Below are positions 37,502 through 45,942 of a stretch of DNA of 64,000 nt, piece after piece. The notes beneath the pieces are model-generated. The model was not told where the DNA came from and made no database searches. It was given only the letters and a program-made list of their open reading frames with translations. The stretch is from positions 2,232,001 through 2,296,000 of the forward strand of contig NZ_CP007055.1 of NCBI RefSeq assembly GCF_000517625.1, in the 5' to 3' direction. A program made the translations under genes and the position numbers. Within the stretch, counting starts at the first letter, position 1, and each line of letters opens with the position of its first letter. The DNA comes from Halostagnicola larsenii XH-48 (GTDB lineage Archaea; Halobacteriota; Halobacteria; Halobacteriales; Natrialbaceae).

Positions 37502-38827
37502 TCAGGCGAGCGCTGCCATCGATAACACGACCAGCGCGCAGAAGATCGCCCCGCTGAGCGTCGCGAGGAAGTTCACGCCCTGGTTGCCGAGTGTCGTCCC
37601 CTCGAGGGTCGCCCCCAAAACGCTATCGACGAGCATTCCGACGAAGCCGGCGGTCGCGATGATCGCCGTACCGGCGGCGTCCACCTCGGCGAAAAAGCCA
37701 AAGGAGAGCACCGCGACGATCGCCGCACCGACGAAGCCGGCGACGGTCCCCTGCCAGGTCACGCCCCCGTCGGTGCCGGGGTCGACCGGCTCGAGCGTCG
37801 TGATCAACAGCGGTCTGTCGAAGACGCTCCCGACTTCGCTAGAGAGGGTGTCGCTCATCGCGGCGGCGACCGACCCCGCGAAGGCGAAGAGAAACAGCTC
37901 GGGTTCGGTGGGGATCATGTCGGCGGAGCTGGCAGCGTAGCCGAGCACCGCGGCCACCCCGACTGCGGAGTTACCCAACACGTTTCCGCTCCCGCGAGCG
38001 CCGTCGTTGTCCTCAGCGACGCCGCGAGTCTCTTTCTCGTCGTACCTGAACTTCGTCGAGAGTCCGCCGATGCCGAAAAAGGAGATGAGGACGACGAACC
38101 AACCGTACCCGCCGAGGACGATGGTCAGCAGGCCGAGTAAGATGCCGGTCAGCATCCCCGCGATCGAGGCCGTATCGAGCGCGTAGGAGACGTAGCCGAG
38201 CGCGATCGTCACGGCGAGCGCAGCGAGGATTTCGACCGGTCCGATCGCCGTCTCGAGTTCCGCGAGCAACCAGAGGAGCAGGCCGACCGACAGCATGATC
38301 ACCGGATCGTCGTACAGCAAGAGGACGTCCCGCAACAGCGCCGCGAGCAGGACACCGCTTGCGGCCAGGAAGAGGACAGCCGGGAGCGCGGACTCGAGGG
38401 AGTCACCGACGATCGAGAGCGTCGCGATCTGGCCGGCTACACCGGCGACGGCGCCGCCGACACAGAACGCGGTCACGGAGCGGACGCCGTGCTCTACGCG
38501 ACGGCGAGCGAGCCGTTCCGCGAGGTTGCCGTACCCGACGAGGACGACCGTTCCGACCAGCACGGACACGGGCATCGAGAACGCCGTCGTGAAAAAGCCG
38601 AGGATACCGGCACCGAAAACGAAGGCGATGACGCCGTAGAGGCGTCCGTCTTCGTAGTCGTCCGGATACGCGAGGAGATCGAAGAGCCGCCCGTCGGTAA
38701 CGATGAGCGCTCCCAGAATCACCACCGAAGCGAGAATAAGTGTAGGCTCGGGCCCGAAGAGCGGAAGGGCGAGCGACAGCGTCGAAAGCACTGCGAATGC
38801 GCCGGCTCGCCAGACGGGTGCTGTCAC
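37502..38827 (-). CDS. DUF92 family membrane protein with N-terminal extra half
   Basis: 441 residues, about 12 helices. The C-terminal half is DUF92: YALDTASIAGMLTGILLG, GIGGLSTKFRYDEKE, GSVAAAMSDTLSSEVG and a last GMLVDSVLGATLEG. In plants the DUF92 protein VTE6 phosphorylates phytyl phosphate. The N-terminal half (1-190) looks like a degenerate CTP-dependent polyprenol kinase layout; this is inference. The gene lies beside two cis-prenyltransferase-like genes, so a role in polyprenyl (di)phosphate metabolism is likely. GTG start with a TATA-like box about 30 bp upstream. Confidence 0.85.
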   Translation of the reverse strand: MTAPVWRAGAFAVLSTLSLALPLFGPEPTLILASVVILGALIVTDGRLFDLLAYPDDYEDGRLYGVIAFVFGAGILGFFTTAFSMPVSVLVGTVVLVGYGNLAERLARRRVEHGVRSVTAFCVGGAVAGVAGQIATLSIVGDSLESALPAVLFLAASGVLLAALLRDVLLLYDDPVIMLSVGLLLWLLAELETAIGPVEILAALAVTIALGYVSYALDTASIAGMLTGILLGLLTIVLGGYGWFVVLISFFGIGGLSTKFRYDEKETRGVAEDNDGARGSGNVLGNSAVGVAAVLGYAASSADMIPTEPELFLFAFAGSVAAAMSDTLSSEVGSVFDRPLLITTLEPVDPGTDGGVTWQGTVAGFVGAAIVAVLSFGFFAEVDAAGTAIIATAGFVGMLVDSVLGATLEGTTLGNQGVNFLATLSGAIFCALVVLSMAALA

Positions 38828-39378: not shown

Positions 39379-40011
39379 ATGCATCTCGCAACGAAACCAC
39401 CAGCCGTGGGACTGTACGAGCGATACCTCACCCATCGGATCGGTCGCTACGACGCCGACGGTCCCGACCACGTCGCGCTCGTCATCACGGAACGCGACCT
39501 CTTAGAGGAGGACGCTTACGAGACGCTCACCGACTTCTTCGAGTGGGCGTTCGAGTACGCGAGTCGCGTGACCGTCTACGTCAGCGTCCTCGACGCGGCG
39601 GCAGTGCCGACGCTTCGAAGCGACCTCGAGACGGTCGAGACGCCCCGCGAGAGCGCGGTCCGCGGACCGGACGACCGAACGCCGGCGGACGCGCCGATCC
39701 AAATCGGTATCGGTCTCGGCGGCAAACACGAGTTCACTAGCGCCGTCAGAACGCTCGCGGCCGGCGTCGACGAGGGTGACCTCGAGCCGGCGGACATCGA
39801 CGACGAATCCGTCGAGGAGCACCTGATCTTCCCGTCCGAACCCGATCTCGTCATCAAAACCGGCGCCGAGCGGCTCTCGGATTTCATGATCTGGCAGTCG
39901 GTTTACTCGGAACTGTACTTTACCGACGTCAACTGGCGCGATTTCCGACGACGAGACTTCCTCCGTGCGGTTCGCGAGTTCCGCAATCGTTCCCGTCGGT
40001 TCGGCGAGTAG
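39379..40011 (+). CDS. UppS-like protein lacking the catalytic Asp (NgBR-like cis-prenyltransferase subunit)
   Basis: 210 residues homologous along their length to cis-prenyltransferases. The catalytic IQDGNRR of the neighbour UppS is here VITERDL, so Asp is replaced by Thr37 and the phosphate-binding GNRR is lost. The C-terminal half is kept (DLVIKTGAERLSDFMIWQ, then YFTDVNWRDFRRRDF). The protein ends RRFGE, the RxG motif of active cis-prenyltransferases and of the accessory subunit NgBR/Nus1. It is probably inactive alone and a partner of the UppS at 40403. Confidence 0.85.
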   Translation: MHLATKPPAVGLYERYLTHRIGRYDADGPDHVALVITERDLLEEDAYETLTDFFEWAFEYASRVTVYVSVLDAAAVPTLRSDLETVETPRESAVRGPDDRTPADAPIQIGIGLGGKHEFTSAVRTLAAGVDEGDLEPADIDDESVEEHLIFPSEPDLVIKTGAERLSDFMIWQSVYSELYFTDVNWRDFRRRDFLRAVREFRNRSRRFGE

Positions 40012-40037
40012 ATTCGCCGGTGCTTCGAGCGGGTTCG

Positions 40038-40268
40038 TCAGTTCGACGACTGATCGCCGCTCTCGAGGTCGACGTACGAACGGAACGTCAGTACGACGCC
40101 GATGACTAGCGAGACGAAGGCACCGCCGATCAGGGCGAAATCGGTGGTTCGGTACTGGTCGGCGGCGTCACTCGGGTGCTGTAAGACGCCGGTGACGAGA
40201 AGATATCCCAGTCCGGCGACGCCGAGAAGCGTTGCCGCGAATCCGATCGCGAAGAGTCGGCGATCCAT
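40038..40268 (-). CDS. Small two-helix membrane protein
   Basis: 76 residues from ATG 40268. Helix 1 is about 5-25 (FAIGFAATLLGVAGLGYLLV) and helix 2 is about 45-64 (FALIGGAFVSLVIGVVLTF), with a short acidic tail. No family recognised. It lies 134 bp downstream of uppS on the same strand and could be cotranscribed. An in-frame start at 40352 adds an unlikely basic extension. Confidence 0.65.
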   Translation of the reverse strand: MDRRLFAIGFAATLLGVAGLGYLLVTGVLQHPSDAADQYRTTDFALIGGAFVSLVIGVVLTFRSYVDLESGDQSSN

Positions 40269-40402
40269 CCTGCCGGTCGTTTCGCGTGTTGGCGATTCAA
40301 CGTTTCGATTGGAAGCTAATCGCCTGGCTATCGTCGATTCGGAGATCATCAATTCGGATCGCCATCGTTCGATTCAATCCGCGGTCGACTTACCGTCCCG
40401 AC

Positions 40403-41341
40403 TCAGTCCGCCGCCTGTCCGCCGGCCTCGAGTCCATCGGTTTCCTCGTCTTCATCCGGTTGTTCGCCGGTCGGAAGCGAATCTCGAAAGCGATCGACGA
40501 CCGCTTTCGCCTCCGCGAGTTCGGGTTCGCTGACGGCACCCAGAAGCGCGAGCGCGCGGCGAGCGCGGGTGCGACGCCAGGAGGCTTCGCGGTGCTCGTA
40601 GGTACGAATCCCGCGGAGGAAGTCGGGCTTGGAAAACTCCGGCCAGTATGGCGTACAGAAAAAGACCGCGGCCTCGTTGCCGTTTGCGTGCCACGGCAGG
40701 AAGTTCGAGGTTCGCTCGTCGCCGCCGGTTCTGATGATCAGGTCGACGTCCCTGACCGTCCGATCGTAGAGGCGCGATTCGATCGTTTCGACGTCGATCT
40801 CTGCCGGCTCGAGGTCGTCCGATTCGACGTCTCGAGCGACGCTTCTGGCGGCACAGAGAAGCTCCGTGCGCCCGCCGTAGGCCAGCGCGATGTTGAGGAC
40901 GAACCGATCGTAGCCGCGGGTTTGTTCCTCGGCGTAGTCGACGGCGTCTTGAACGCGCTCGGGGAGTCGCCCGACATCGCCGAGCACGCGGATGCACACC
41001 TCGTTGTCGTGGACGCGGTCGGCGTCGGCGAACTCGTAGAGTTTCTCACAGAGGAGGTCGAACAGTTCCTCGTTTTCGTCGTCCGGGCGTTCGAAGTTCT
41101 CCGTCGAAAACGTATAGAGGGTCAGTTCCTCGACGCCGACGTCCTGACACCACTCGAGAACTCGTTCGGTCGTCTCCGCACCGGCTCGGTGCCCGTCGGG
41201 CGCGTCGCCGCCGCGCTGTCGCGCGTACCGTCGGTTTCCGTCCTGAATTACGGCGACGTGGGTCGGAGCACCGGATATTTCTCGGGAAAGGAGTTGCTCG
41301 TAGGCCCAGTCGACGCGTCGGCGAAGCCACCGCTTCATCAT
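40403..41341 (-). CDS. uppS: cis-prenyltransferase catalytic subunit (undecaprenyl/polyprenyl diphosphate synthase family)
   Basis: 312 residues. The catalytic Asp34 is in HVAVIQDGNRRYAR. LTLYTFSTENF, IALAYGGRTEL and IIRTGGDERTSNFLPW are the other family motifs. It condenses isopentenyl diphosphate with an allylic diphosphate in cis to make the polyprenyl carrier (dolichol precursor in archaea) for glycosylation. At the place where bacterial UppS has RRFG, this protein reads REASWRR, so RxG is missing; a 60-residue acidic tail follows. That pattern matches a catalytic subunit needing an RxG partner, found next door at 39379. Start ATG 41341 or 41338. Confidence 0.93.
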   Translation of the reverse strand: MMKRWLRRRVDWAYEQLLSREISGAPTHVAVIQDGNRRYARQRGGDAPDGHRAGAETTERVLEWCQDVGVEELTLYTFSTENFERPDDENEELFDLLCEKLYEFADADRVHDNEVCIRVLGDVGRLPERVQDAVDYAEEQTRGYDRFVLNIALAYGGRTELLCAARSVARDVESDDLEPAEIDVETIESRLYDRTVRDVDLIIRTGGDERTSNFLPWHANGNEAAVFFCTPYWPEFSKPDFLRGIRTYEHREASWRRTRARRALALLGAVSEPELAEAKAVVDRFRDSLPTGEQPDEDEETDGLEAGGQAAD

Positions 41342-41505: not shown

Positions 41506-41910
41506 ATGGCAGACGCGATCGACGACGACCTCTACCAGCGGACGAAGGCACTGCTCGAGCCCGGCGAGATCACACTTAACGCGACGATCGTCCACACTGA
41601 GTACGACGGCCAGGAAGACGTGAAGATGATGCAGGCGACGATCGACGTCGGCGACATCATCGCCGAGCACGCGGGTCACGATCCGACGGACTGTTTCGTC
41701 TACTCCGGAAACGACGACACCGACTTCTCGTCGAACCAGCACCAGGGACGGACCTTAGAGGACGAGGAGTTCGTCTGGGAGTGCCAGCAACTCCTCCGGA
41801 ACGGCAGCTTCGATATCGTCATCTACTACGAAGCGACCGCGGACCACGAGGCGATTCTCGAGGACGTTCGCGACCTCGGATTCGACGTGACCGGCGTCGA
41901 GGGCGAGTGA
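41506..41910 (+). CDS. Haloarchaeal conserved protein (DUF5778-like)
   Basis: 134 residues, acidic, soluble. Features are ADAIDDDLYQRTKALLEPGE, a strand ITLNATIVHTEYDG, and a C-terminal FDIVIYYEATADHEAILED with DLGFDVTGVEG. I recall this as DUF5778, restricted to haloarchaea, function unknown. It is divergent from uppS with 164 bp between the starts. Confidence 0.75.
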   Translation: MADAIDDDLYQRTKALLEPGEITLNATIVHTEYDGQEDVKMMQATIDVGDIIAEHAGHDPTDCFVYSGNDDTDFSSNQHQGRTLEDEEFVWECQQLLRNGSFDIVIYYEATADHEAILEDVRDLGFDVTGVEGE

Positions 41911-42020
41911 CTTCGGGTAGCAATTTGGGCGGTTCTATCGAACCCCTCAGTAGATGACAAGATTTGGCTGCTGAATACGGGGGTAGTCAGCAACTTGAAG
42001 ACGGCGCGCTGATTAGTGAG

Positions 42021-42176
42021 TTACCAATAGGACCAAAGCCACGCAATACCAATCAGAACGTAGCCGAGTCCAAAACCTGCAAAAAGTAACGTATCGCTCA
42101 AAGCGCCGAGCCCTACCTGAATAAGACCACATACAATCATCAACGGGAGCAGCTTCTGGGCGCGCTCTTGTTGCAC
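42021..42176 (-). CDS. 51-residue two-helix membrane protein
   Basis: A short gene from GTG 42176 to TAA 42021. The protein begins with a charged stretch (QQERAQKLLP) and then has two hydrophobic segments, LMIVCGLIQVGLGAL and TLLFAGFGLGYVLIGIAWLW. A stop codon (TAG) lies two codons upstream of the GTG, so the start cannot be further upstream. A TATA-like ATATAC is centred 23 bp before it. Codons are AT-richer than in the core genes. No family recognised. Confidence 0.6.
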   Translation of the reverse strand: MQQERAQKLLPLMIVCGLIQVGLGALSDTLLFAGFGLGYVLIGIAWLWSYW

Positions 42177-42196
42177 ATTCTATCATCAATGTATCG

Positions 42197-42202
42197 GTAT
42201 AT
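42197..42202 (-). promoter_or_regulatory. TATA-like box for the 51-residue gene
   Basis: ATATAC on the minus strand is centred 23-24 bp before GTG 42176. Confidence 0.4.
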
Positions 42203-42367
42203 GATTCATTTGATCTCTGTGTTTTCCACTCCGAGCTACCGCCAGATGGCGATTAACCAGTGACCGACTTGCGCCCGCTATTCAGCACAGCTGCTGAAAC
42301 CAATCACCAGCCGAGGGTTTCAACAGAGCCATTTGGGTGGCAATCATTCACGTACAGTGCCGATTGG

Positions 42368-42373
42368 CTTATG
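42368..42373 (+). promoter_or_regulatory. TATA-like box for the tetrapyrrole operon
   Basis: CTTATG is centred about 27 bp before ATG 42398. Confidence 0.4.
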
Positions 42374-42397
42374 TGACGCGACTCCTGACGAACCGAC

Positions 42398-43579
42398 ATG
42401 AACGCGGCTTCGAGCGTCGATCTGACGGAACACGAGCGGGCGGTCGTCAACGCCTTTCAGGGCGGGTTTCCGGTCACTGAGCGGCCGTTCGAACCCGCCG
42501 CAGCCGCGATGCGCGATCGCGGCGTCGATACTACCGGCGAGTCGGTGCTCGAGACGATTCGCGACCTCGACGAGCGCGGCGTCCTCTCGCGGTTCGGGCC
42601 GCTGGTCAACGCACAGGAGATCGGCGGGGCGGCGACGCTGGTCGCCATGCACGCCCCCGAAGAGCGGTTCGACGAGGTCGTCGAGGCAGTCAACGATCAC
42701 CGCGAGGTCGCGCACAACTACGAGCGCGAACATCCGCATCTAAACGTCTGGTTCGTCGTGAGCGTCGCAGAGCGCGAGGCGCGACGCGCCTCGGAACGGG
42801 CGAACGGCGAAGTCGTGAGCAGCCGCGTCGAGGAGGTGCTCGCGGAGATCGAAGCCGAAACCGGACAGGAGACCTATAACCTCCCGAAACAACGGGAGTT
42901 CCGCGTCGAGGCGAAGTTCTACGTCGACGGGCCGTTCGGGACGGGTGGCGGGGACGAGACCGACCGAACGGGTTCGGAGGCTGACGGAGAGAGCCGCGGT
43001 ATCGACTGTTCCGACCTCGGCCCCGACGTGTCCCCGACCGATCGGGACACGCTCACGCCGGCGGAACGGGATCTCGTGCTCGAGGTCCAGGGCGGTCTTC
43101 CGCTGACGGAAACGCCCTACGCCGATGTCGCCGAAACGATCGGTCGGGAGACCTCGTGGGTGCTCGAGACGATACAACGGTTCGTCCTCGAGGGGAAGAT
43201 TCGCCGGGTCGGCGTGGTCCCGAACCACTACGCGCTGGGCTATACGGAAAACGGGATGACCGTCTGGGACGTTCCCGACGATCTCGTCTCGACCGTCGGC
43301 CCCGAAGTGGCCGGCCTCCCGTTCGTCACCCACTGTTACGAACGGCCGCGCCACGAGGGCGTCTGGCCGTACAACTTCTTCGCGATGACACACGGACGAA
43401 GCGAAGCGGAGAGCGAGCGCCGAATCGAGCAGGTAAGAGAGACAATGGCCGAACACTGGGATGTCGAAGACGGCGACTGGGACTCGCTGTTCTCGACGGA
43501 GATCCTCAAGAAGACCGGCATTCGACTGGCCGAACGAGCCGATGCGAACACGACGCAGGACGAGTCCACTGATCGATGA
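42398..43579 (+). CDS. Fused siroheme decarboxylase (AhbA-AhbB), AsnC-like
   Basis: 393 residues made of two similar halves. Each starts with an AsnC/Lrp-type helix-turn-helix (TEHERAVVNAFQGGFPVTE and TPAERDLVLEVQGGLPLTE) followed by a ferredoxin-like domain (VLSRFGPLVNAQEIGGAATL and KIRRVGVVPNHYALGYTENG). This is the layout of AhbA and AhbB, which decarboxylate siroheme to didecarboxysiroheme on the archaeal route to haem. An acidic linker (about 185-220) joins them. It overlaps the next gene by 4 nt. It is often mislabelled a transcription factor. Confidence 0.85.
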   Translation: MNAASSVDLTEHERAVVNAFQGGFPVTERPFEPAAAAMRDRGVDTTGESVLETIRDLDERGVLSRFGPLVNAQEIGGAATLVAMHAPEERFDEVVEAVNDHREVAHNYEREHPHLNVWFVVSVAEREARRASERANGEVVSSRVEEVLAEIEAETGQETYNLPKQREFRVEAKFYVDGPFGTGGGDETDRTGSEADGESRGIDCSDLGPDVSPTDRDTLTPAERDLVLEVQGGLPLTETPYADVAETIGRETSWVLETIQRFVLEGKIRRVGVVPNHYALGYTENGMTVWDVPDDLVSTVGPEVAGLPFVTHCYERPRHEGVWPYNFFAMTHGRSEAESERRIEQVRETMAEHWDVEDGDWDSLFSTEILKKTGIRLAERADANTTQDESTDR

Positions 43580-44265
43580 TTCCACTGTTACACGACTTCA
43601 CGGACGTTCCCGTTCTCATCTTCGGCGGTGGCCTGGTGGGGGCACGGAAGTCCCGTCGATTCGCCAGGGAAGCCGACGTGACCGTCGTGAGCCCCGAGTT
43701 CGTCGACGAGCCGTTCGGTCCGCACGAACTCGACGATACCGAATCGACAGCCGGGAGCATCGAACTCGTCCGTGCCGGACCGGGGCCTGAAAACGTCGAG
43801 GAGTGGATCGCACGCCTCGAGCCGGCGCTGGTAATCGCGGCAACCGACGACGGGGCGGTCAACGAAGCGGTCGTCGAATCGGCCCGAGAGCGGGGAATCC
43901 TCGTCAACCGAGCGGATCGATCCGGCGACCGCGACCCCGGGAGCGTCGTCGTTCCCGCCACGGCTCGAGACGAACAGGTCGTCGTCTCGATCTCGACGGG
44001 CGGTACCGCACCCGTCCTGAGCAAGTACCTCCGTCAGGAACTCGAGGAGACGCTCGAGGGAGCAAGCGAGATGGCCACGGTTCTGGGAGACTTGCGAACG
44101 GAACTTAAGCGTCGGGACGTTCCGCCCGACAGACGTCGGGAAATCGTTACCGACGTCGTCAACTCTTCGGCAACTTGGACAGCTTTACGTAGTGGCGCTT
44201 CGAAGGCTAGTCAAGTGATCGAGGACGTGCTGGAGGAAGAACGTTCGAGAGGGGGGAATCCGTGA
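43576..44265 (+). CDS. Precorrin-2 dehydrogenase (Met8/CysG N-domain-like)
   Basis: 229 residues. The NAD-binding Rossmann start is PVLIFGGGLVGARKSRRF. The dimerisation domain includes NRADRSGDRDPGSVVVPA and ISTGGTAPVLSKYLRQ, as in Met8p and SirC. It oxidises precorrin-2 to sirohydrochlorin; whether it also inserts iron, as Met8p does, is not clear from sequence. It is coupled on both sides by short overlaps, with the AhbAB-like gene before and hemA after. Confidence 0.9.
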   Translation: MIPLLHDFTDVPVLIFGGGLVGARKSRRFAREADVTVVSPEFVDEPFGPHELDDTESTAGSIELVRAGPGPENVEEWIARLEPALVIAATDDGAVNEAVVESARERGILVNRADRSGDRDPGSVVVPATARDEQVVVSISTGGTAPVLSKYLRQELEETLEGASEMATVLGDLRTELKRRDVPPDRRREIVTDVVNSSATWTALRSGASKASQVIEDVLEEERSRGGNP

Positions 44266-45599
44266 TGATCCCGGCAGGTGTCGTCACCGGCGCGCGGATC
44301 ACCCACGAAAGCGGGACCGTCGACGATCTCGCGACCGCGAGCCCCGAGAGTCAGCGGGCCAGCGTCGCCGAGTTCCTCTCGGTCCCAGAGGTCGAAGAGG
44401 CGATCGTCCTTTCGACGTGCAACCGCGTCGAAGCCTACGTCGTCACGACCGACAGCGCGGTCGGGCGGGCGGCACTCGAGGAGTTCTTCAGCGAGACCGA
44501 CGACGACGCGCTCGTCCGATCGGACCACGACGAGAGTCTCAAACACCTGATCCGAGTCGCGTGTGGCCTCGAGTCGGTCGTCCTCGGCGAGGACCAGATC
44601 ATCGGACAGGTGCGAACGGCCTACGAGGACGCCCGAACCGCCGGCGGGATCGGGCCGCTACTCGAGATGGCCGTGACGAAGGCCATCCACGTCGGCGAAC
44701 GGGCGCGGACGGAGACGAAGATCAACGAAGGAGTCGTCTCGCTCGGATCTGCGGCGACCAGACTCGCGACCGACGAACGATCGCTCGAAGGGGAGACCGG
44801 CCTCGTCGTCGGCGCCGGCGAGATGGGACGACTCGCCGCCCGGAACCTCGCGGAGACCGGCATTTCGGAACTCGTAATCGCGAACAGAACCGTCTCCCGT
44901 GCGACGCACCTGATCGAGGAACTCGACGTGGACGGACGTGCCGTCTCGCTGCAGTCGCTCGAGACGGTCACCGAACGCGCGACCGTCATCGTGACGGCGA
45001 CCGGGAGCGACGAACCGCTGCTCGATCAGCGCCACCTCGGTGACCGAGAACAGATCGTCGTCGACCTCGGCCAGCCGCGCGACGTCGATCCGGCCGCCGC
45101 CACGCTCGAGCCGGTGACGGTCTTCGATCTGGACGACCTCGAGACGGTCACCGAGCGAACGCACGGCCAGCGCGCGGAGGCGGCTTCCGCGGTCGAGACG
45201 ATGATCGAACGGGAGTTCGACCACCTCCGGAGTCAGTACAAGCGAGCCCGAGCGGACGACGTGATCGGAACGATGTACGAGTCCGCAGAACGGATCAAAG
45301 CCAGAGAACTCGAGACCGCCATCTCCCGGCTCGAGGACGAAAACAGAGGCGAACTTACCGACGAACAGCGCGACATCGTCGAATCGATGGCCGATTCGCT
45401 CGTGAGCCAGCTGCTGGCTCCGCCGACAAAGAGCCTCCGAGAGGCCGCACAGGAAGACGACTGGCGGACGATCAACACAGCGCTCCAACTGTTCGATCCG
45501 GATTTCGGCTCCCGTGGCGATGGGGACGGGCGTGGAGAGGCCCCGCAGTCGCTGTTTGGGGCCGCATCGGATCCGATCGGTGCGACCGACGACGACTGA
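44265..45599 (+). CDS. hemA: Glutamyl-tRNA reductase
   Basis: 444 residues. The catalytic Cys52 is in VLSTCNRVEAYV. The NADPH domain has LVVGAGEMGRLAARNL, and a helical dimerisation domain ends the protein. It reduces glutamyl-tRNA(Glu) to glutamate-1-semialdehyde, the first committed step of tetrapyrrole synthesis. ATG 44265 overlaps the previous stop (TGATG), a typical coupled start; a GTG one codon earlier is possible. The last 30 residues are a variable acidic tail. Confidence 0.97.
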   Translation: MIPAGVVTGARITHESGTVDDLATASPESQRASVAEFLSVPEVEEAIVLSTCNRVEAYVVTTDSAVGRAALEEFFSETDDDALVRSDHDESLKHLIRVACGLESVVLGEDQIIGQVRTAYEDARTAGGIGPLLEMAVTKAIHVGERARTETKINEGVVSLGSAATRLATDERSLEGETGLVVGAGEMGRLAARNLAETGISELVIANRTVSRATHLIEELDVDGRAVSLQSLETVTERATVIVTATGSDEPLLDQRHLGDREQIVVDLGQPRDVDPAAATLEPVTVFDLDDLETVTERTHGQRAEAASAVETMIEREFDHLRSQYKRARADDVIGTMYESAERIKARELETAISRLEDENRGELTDEQRDIVESMADSLVSQLLAPPTKSLREAAQEDDWRTINTALQLFDPDFGSRGDGDGRGEAPQSLFGAASDPIGATDDD

Positions 45600-45631
45600 G
45601 ACATCCTCGCGGGTTCAGCGTGGCCCAATCG

Positions 45632-45639
45632 TTATTTTC
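45632..45639 (+). promoter_or_regulatory. TATA-like box for the pterin dehydratase gene
   Basis: TTATTTTC is centred 26 bp before ATG 45661. The T-rich run just after hemA may also help end that transcript. Confidence 0.45.
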
Positions 45640-45660
45640 CTGCGTATCGTTCGACCGACC

Positions 45661-45942
45661 ATGGCCGAGCTCTTATCCGACGACGAGATCAGCGAGCGGC
45701 TTCCCGAGGAGTGGGACCGCGACGGCGACGAGATCGTCCGCGTCTACGAATTCGACGACTACCTCGACGGCGTCAACGCCGCCCAGATGGTCGGCGAAAT
45801 CGCCGAATCGCAGTTTCACCACCCGGAGATCATCATCAGGTACAAAGAACTCGAGGTTCGGCTCACGAGCCACGAGGAGGGCGGGATTACGGATGCGGAC
45901 GTCGAGATGGCCGAACTGATCGAATCCGAACAGTCCGCGTGA
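45661..45942 (+). CDS. Pterin-4a-carbinolamine dehydratase
   Basis: 93 residues, standard for the PCD/DCoH family. The active-site motif is ESQFHHPEIIIRYKELEV followed by LTSHEEGGITDADVEMA, with the conserved His pair. It dehydrates 4a-hydroxytetrahydropterins, or may act as a pterin-related chaperone; archaeal members have also been linked to molybdopterin and folate metabolism. Leaderless start. It is probably transcribed with the gene at 45986, 43 bp downstream. Confidence 0.93.
   Translation: MAELLSDDEISERLPEEWDRDGDEIVRVYEFDDYLDGVNAAQMVGEIAESQFHHPEIIIRYKELEVRLTSHEEGGITDADVEMAELIESEQSA

Follow-up and report, generated by a model that had tools for sequence, protein, structure and literature searches.

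Two cis-prenyltransferase-like genes lie together in a 64,000-nucleotide stretch of Halostagnicola larsenii XH-48 DNA (contig NZ_CP007055.1, positions 2,232,001 to 2,296,000; referred to as the window), and we consider it very probable that they encode the subunits of one obligate heteromeric cis-prenyltransferase, which would make the polyprenyl diphosphate for dolichyl phosphate. The catalytic, DHDDS/UppS-like subunit is encoded on the minus strand (40403-41341, 312 residues) and the accessory, non-catalytic subunit of the NgBR/Nus1-like type on the plus strand (39379-40011, 210 residues). Both frames, which a preliminary description of the window had picked out as a pair, are real. The catalytic product matches PF01255 across the whole profile (E-value of 3.4e-68), and the accessory product matches it in its C-terminal half only (profile positions 115-219, E-value of 4.5e-26). 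These two are the only PF01255 genes in the H. larsenii genome. Genes, motifs, conservation, co-occurrence, orthology and predicted folds were computed, and at the level of sequence the pair is a heteromeric cis-prenyltransferase.

A split enzyme of this kind is known, and the Methanosarcina mazei heteromer as a precedent limits the novelty of the present one. What is added is a phylum-wide ancestry, a conserved convergent arrangement of the two genes and a deep-rooted link between the accessory gene and a neighboring gene of the DUF92 family. Little of archaeal dolichyl phosphate synthesis has been charted apart from the prenyltransferase and the geranylgeranyl reductase (PMC5088576). The split enzyme turns out to be the rule through nearly the whole phylum and not a Methanosarcina oddity, so it is probably wrong to annotate the haloarchaeal genes as two independent undecaprenyl diphosphate synthases.

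Complementary motifs of the two subunits

The haloarchaeal survey covered 294 genomes from 78 genera, and the sequence set comprised 94 haloarchaeal and 51 other catalytic subunits as well as 130 accessories; the resulting counts (145 and 130) include a few genes twice, owing to overlaps between fetched loci. The catalytic P-loop D34-G-N-R-R38 (41228-41242, minus strand), which in the window protein stands within the stretch VAVIQDGNRR, is present in 145/145 catalytic homologues. All canonical residues are kept in the 40403 product (D34-GNRR, H51, E81/N82/R85, R204, R210-x-S212 and E223), and N82, R85, R204, R210 and S212 reach 100% among the catalytic homologues, with R37 invariant as well. 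At the place of RRFG in homodimeric UppS, where the E. coli UppS alignment ends, the protein reads REASWRR (40571-40591, minus strand). The preliminary description had reported IQDGNRR, a missing RxG and REASWRR at the aligned place, and these motif readings were right in every detail. An RxG is absent within approximately five residues of the C-terminus in 141/145 catalytic homologues, and the other four carry an RxG-like tripeptide near the end. One methanogen catalytic subunit (L225:2321-3139, minus strand) has the tail RLYDQRIRAGE, an RxG-like end that misses the accessory pattern by one residue and is possibly a partial regain.

The acidic tail that had been described for the catalytic protein is present, but it is preceded by an extended last helix and a predicted helix-turn-helix (40478-40630, minus strand; residues 238-288, with AlphaFold2 helices at 238-269 and 272-288). 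Many catalytic subunits of methanogens and Archaeoglobus-like lineages are short-tailed and have no helix-turn-helix, and they still lack the RxG. Thus, the missing RxG and not the C-terminal extension is the common feature.

The accessory product gave an AlphaFold2 model with the cis-prenyltransferase fold (predicted local distance difference test, pLDDT, 87.7; predicted template modeling score, pTM, 0.84). In place of the catalytic P-loop it carries ITERDLL (39484-39504, plus strand; residues 36-42), so that it reads VITERDLL where the catalytic homologue has IQDGNRR, and it no longer has the Asp, Asn and Arg that bind the diphosphate. Neither DGN nor GNRR occurs in any haloarchaeal accessory. 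The accessory tail ends in the C-terminal RxG, R207-F208-G209, followed by E210 and the stop codon (39997-40011, plus strand); the loss of the catalytic Asp and GNRR and the RRFGE end had both been read correctly before. R[RK]xG plus exactly one residue forms the end of 130/130 accessories (strict RxG in 128), and 127/130 have their last Trp exactly 24 residues from the C-terminus. The proposal that the defects of the two proteins are complementary thus stood up across the whole set, far beyond chance. In the accessories of basal haloarchaea (G219, G287), nearly all other motifs are gone, including RLSDF and TERDLL, while the tail is kept as RRYGR or RRFGR, which argues that selection acts on the tail itself.

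From these features we infer a dimer, a tail insertion, an activity and a product. The 40403 product would bind an allylic primer (geranylgeranyl diphosphate or farnesyl diphosphate), Mg2+ and isopentenyl diphosphate (IPP) via D34-GNRR, N82, R85 and R204/R210-x-S. On its own it would leave the second (IPP) site incomplete, since its last helix is predicted to continue into the helix-turn-helix and not into an RxG tail. The 39379 product would be a dead paralogue in which the fold and the C-terminal half are preserved; the two proteins would dimerize in the manner of homodimeric UppS, and the accessory tail would complete the active site of its partner. The product is probably a C50-60 polyprenyl diphosphate, which would be turned into the dolichyl phosphate used by AglB in N-glycosylation. 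One AglB oligosaccharyltransferase is encoded in the H. larsenii genome.

Comparison with known cis-prenyltransferases

The insertion of the tail into the partner site is suggested by homology with the human structure. In the human enzyme, the backbone nitrogens of NgBR L291 and G292 bind the S2 phosphate, the carbonyl of G292 contacts DHDDS N82 and R85, and the carboxylate of the C-terminal K293 contacts R37 and R85; the DHDDS helix-turn-helix is incompatible with building that network in a homodimer (PMC7573591). With human DHDDS/NgBR (6z1n, 6w2l) the window pair shares a dead paralogue whose chain stops one residue after the RxG, the aligned R37, N82 and R85, invariant in the archaeal catalytic family, and the C-terminal helix-turn-helix of the catalytic subunit, here a predicted one. 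When the catalytic profile was compared with all solved PDB chains, human DHDDS came first (E-value of 1e-73), ahead of all UppS, and a Foldseek search with the catalytic model returned DHDDS (6z1n_A) at the top with 300 aligned columns, compared with approximately 229 for UppS.

The pair had been described as exactly the division between DHDDS and NgBR. The catalytic/accessory division is indeed the same and the proposed mechanism matches the human structure, but the pair is not DHDDS/NgBR in the strict sense, since a membrane anchor is lacking and the accessory profile matches UppS far better than NgBR. In human NgBR the N-terminus carries a membrane anchor, whereas the maximum 19-residue hydropathy of the window accessory is 1.15, and a value above 1.6 was found in only 1/130 accessories. 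The expected archaeal product is also shorter than the human one. Haloarchaeal pairs could serve as anchor-free, genetically tractable models for the human disease enzyme. Yeast Rer2/Nus1 shows the same division into a catalytic and a pseudo-subunit, but Nus1 has no canonical RxG, with Asn replacing Arg (PMC7573591, PMC7839719), while the motif is retained in the archaeal accessory. The fold and the active site are also those of the homodimeric UppS of bacteria (E. coli, B. subtilis), whose RRFG tail aligns with the accessory tail; there, the P-loop Asp and the RxG are on one chain, whereas in the window they are split over two.

The closest precedent is archaeal. The methanogen heteromer mentioned in the preliminary description is real: according to the account of Emi et al. 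(2019) given in PMC8131916, M. mazei has the paralogues MM_0014, MM_0618 and MM_1083, the last two of which form a heteromer with C45-50 products. Like the window pair, MM_0618/MM_1083 is archaeal and consists of two paralogous subunits, and on that account it makes the glycosyl carrier lipid, as the window pair probably does too. It differs in that the genes are far apart in Methanosarcina-type genomes and convergent neighbors in haloarchaea, and in that the C-terminal extension is longer in most catalytic subunits of haloarchaea. A third paralogue of the MM_0014 type is absent from the H. larsenii genome. MM_0014-type proteins are likewise archaeal PF01255 proteins, but they form their own clade, are found in some methanogens only and carry DGN in a single short chain ending in TLGG. 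The open literature yielded no report of the haloarchaeal pair, with subscription journals lying outside this search and an unseen report being possible, and no archaeal paper citing the M. mazei heteromer beyond the Journal of Biological Chemistry paper of 2021.

Co-occurrence, phylogeny and competing explanations

Co-occurrence had been put forward as a check on the pairing, with genomes of only one form as evidence against it. At least two family members were found in 293/294 haloarchaeal genomes, nearly all with exactly two. The lone exception is a 120-contig draft assembly with the accessory present and no detectable catalytic gene, and the catalytic form without the accessory was found in 0/294. 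In the other Halobacteriota families, 68/68 genomes examined closely contain both a catalytic match over the full length and an accessory match in the C-terminal part. Copy number varies in places: one genome (G195) has two complete accessory/catalytic pairs (L164, L165), one of them on the same strand, and another (G227) combines three catalytic copies with a single accessory (L166-L168).

In the phylogeny, the accessories form one clade (support 100/99) and the catalytic subunits another (98/89). As both clades extend through the phylum, the split predates the divergence of the Archaeoglobaceae-like, methanogen, ANME-like (anaerobic methanotrophic) and haloarchaeal lineages, the family names being our own assignment. 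Each window gene shares its clade with the orthologue from a close Methanosarcina, with 49% identity over 259 residues for the catalytic subunit and 35% over 214 residues for the accessory (E-value of 5e-46). One genome (G426) has an MM_0014 orthologue besides one catalytic and one accessory gene, which by elimination leaves the proven MM_0618/MM_1083 enzyme as the orthologue of the window pair.

In a tree of Halobacteriota sequences with DHDDS and bacterial UppS, DHDDS is placed with the archaeal catalytic clade (support 95/84), but its grouping with bacterial UppS was not rejected (approximately unbiased test, p = 0.20). We therefore put forward only tentatively, as a rather doubtful proposal, that the heteromer is the ancestral obligate cis-prenyltransferase of the phylum Halobacteriota and that eukaryotic DHDDS/NgBR arose from an archaeal heteromer of this type instead of having split independently. 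The phylum-wide reach of the split enzyme makes it a testable question where the eukaryotic heteromer came from. A search for Asgard genomes via an actin query turned up only eukaryote-like actins in bacterial assemblies; these genes (L297-L319) lie on contigs of bacterial-binned metagenome-assembled genomes and in some named cyanobacterial assemblies, and in many cases are probably contamination.

Several points weigh against an obligate heteromer. The dimer and the activity of this particular pair are read from sequence and from predicted single-chain folds. The accessory profile matches UppS with an E-value of 1e-35 and NUS1, end to end, with 1e-10. The two genes are convergent and not co-transcribed, for which reason an operon argument was rejected, and they are widely separated in some genera. 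The evolutionary rates of the two subunits covary with a partial r of 0.37, the second highest of 21 pairs; this is suggestive and similar to the value for an unrelated neighbor, and was set aside as support because it is not clearly above such neighbors. Human DHDDS alone forms weakly active homodimers with an approximately 400-fold lower kcat (PMC7573591), so the archaeal catalytic subunit may have some activity alone.

In the most probable alternative, the 40403 product would be a homodimeric UppS that works on its own, and the 39379 product would be a regulator or a protein with another specialization that stays out of its active site. The complete set of catalytic residues in the 40403 product, the residual activity of the human homodimers and the lack of an operon would all fit. 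However, the RxG is missing from nearly all catalytic subunits and kept by the partner only, at a fixed distance from its end; the M. mazei orthologues are reported to form a heteromeric enzyme; and the catalytic form never occurs without the accessory among the haloarchaeal genomes. We regard a self-sufficient UppS as improbable.

It is less probable still that the two proteins form a heteromer whose main product is not the N-glycosylation carrier but some other lipid, such as a different polyprenol or one that regulates the membrane. The neighboring DUF92/VTE6-type gene could point to such a role via isoprenoid salvage, yet the genome has no further PF01255 gene to make the carrier, and it does encode AglB. 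A family of Halobacteriota without any cis-prenyltransferase is informative here. In this family (f18: G300, G309, G318, G327 and G334), no PF01255 gene of either type was found in 5/5 genomes, an absence that is strong only because five incomplete assemblies agree. STT3/AglB is also absent from four of them, and for the fifth assembly completeness is 75% and contamination 5%. Where the enzyme for the carrier is lost, its consumer is thus mostly lost too, and this supports a role of the heteromer in making the N-glycosylation carrier.

A conserved feature of the accessories has also to be weighed. The TERDLL loop is almost invariant in haloarchaea (T 95, E 99, R 96, D 100, L 100 and L 100%) and looser in accessories of other Halobacteriota, where the acidic residue at D40 is kept in 83% and no conservation is seen beyond it. 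The dead site of the haloarchaeal accessories therefore seems to have gained a conserved role of its own, in the interface or the fold. That the 39379 product is instead a separate active prenyltransferase for another substrate, with TERDLL replacing DGNRR, is the least credible explanation: conservation beyond that expected for plain decay and the invariant or nearly invariant Glu178, Trp172 and Tyr176 would favor it, but the diphosphate-binding residues are gone, the loop is unconserved past the acidic residue in other classes, and some accessories have lost most other motifs and keep the tail only.

Gene arrangement and neighboring genes

The catalytic and accessory genes of the window are arranged tail to tail with 391 bp between them, and this convergent order is found in 72/73 linked haloarchaeal pairs. 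A convergent pair recurs in several methanogen families (L218, L220, L221, L223, L224, L228, L230), where the 3' ends overlap by up to 54 bp. With the same order in haloarchaea and methanogens, this is an unusually old arrangement. A small open reading frame between the two genes (40038-40352) was considered as a third component and rejected, being present in 3/74 loci.

Head to head with the accessory gene lies a gene on the minus strand (37502-38827) for a membrane protein of the DUF92/TIGR00297 family (COG1836, the VTE6 phytyl-phosphate-kinase family; PF01940 E-value of 1e-59). Most haloarchaeal loci have DUF92 next to the accessory gene, as do at least nine further families, and the link holds where the catalytic gene sits elsewhere (L123, L124, L132, L139, L144, L156). 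The head-to-head orientation was seen in L217-L219, L235, L236, L240, L253, L255, L257, L259-L269 and L283-L287. Plant VTE6, a phytyl-phosphate kinase, has been described as similar to COG1836 (PMC9782597). This suggests DUF92 as a concrete candidate for a linked isoprenyl-phosphate step, possibly a kinase, outside the enzyme itself. A fusion with a VTE5-like kinase in the N-terminal half of the DUF92 protein found no Pfam support. The f18 genomes, with their apparent loss of the dolichol N-glycosylation pathway, retain DUF92; hence, DUF92 and the cis-prenyltransferase are not strictly dependent on each other, and a dolichol-specific role for DUF92 is weakened. On the other side of the pair, conserved synteny extends over 41506-45942 with genes that, from our reading of their sequences, we take to encode DUF5778, a two-domain AhbA/AhbB-like regulator, and SirC-like and HemA-like proteins of haem/sirohaem synthesis.
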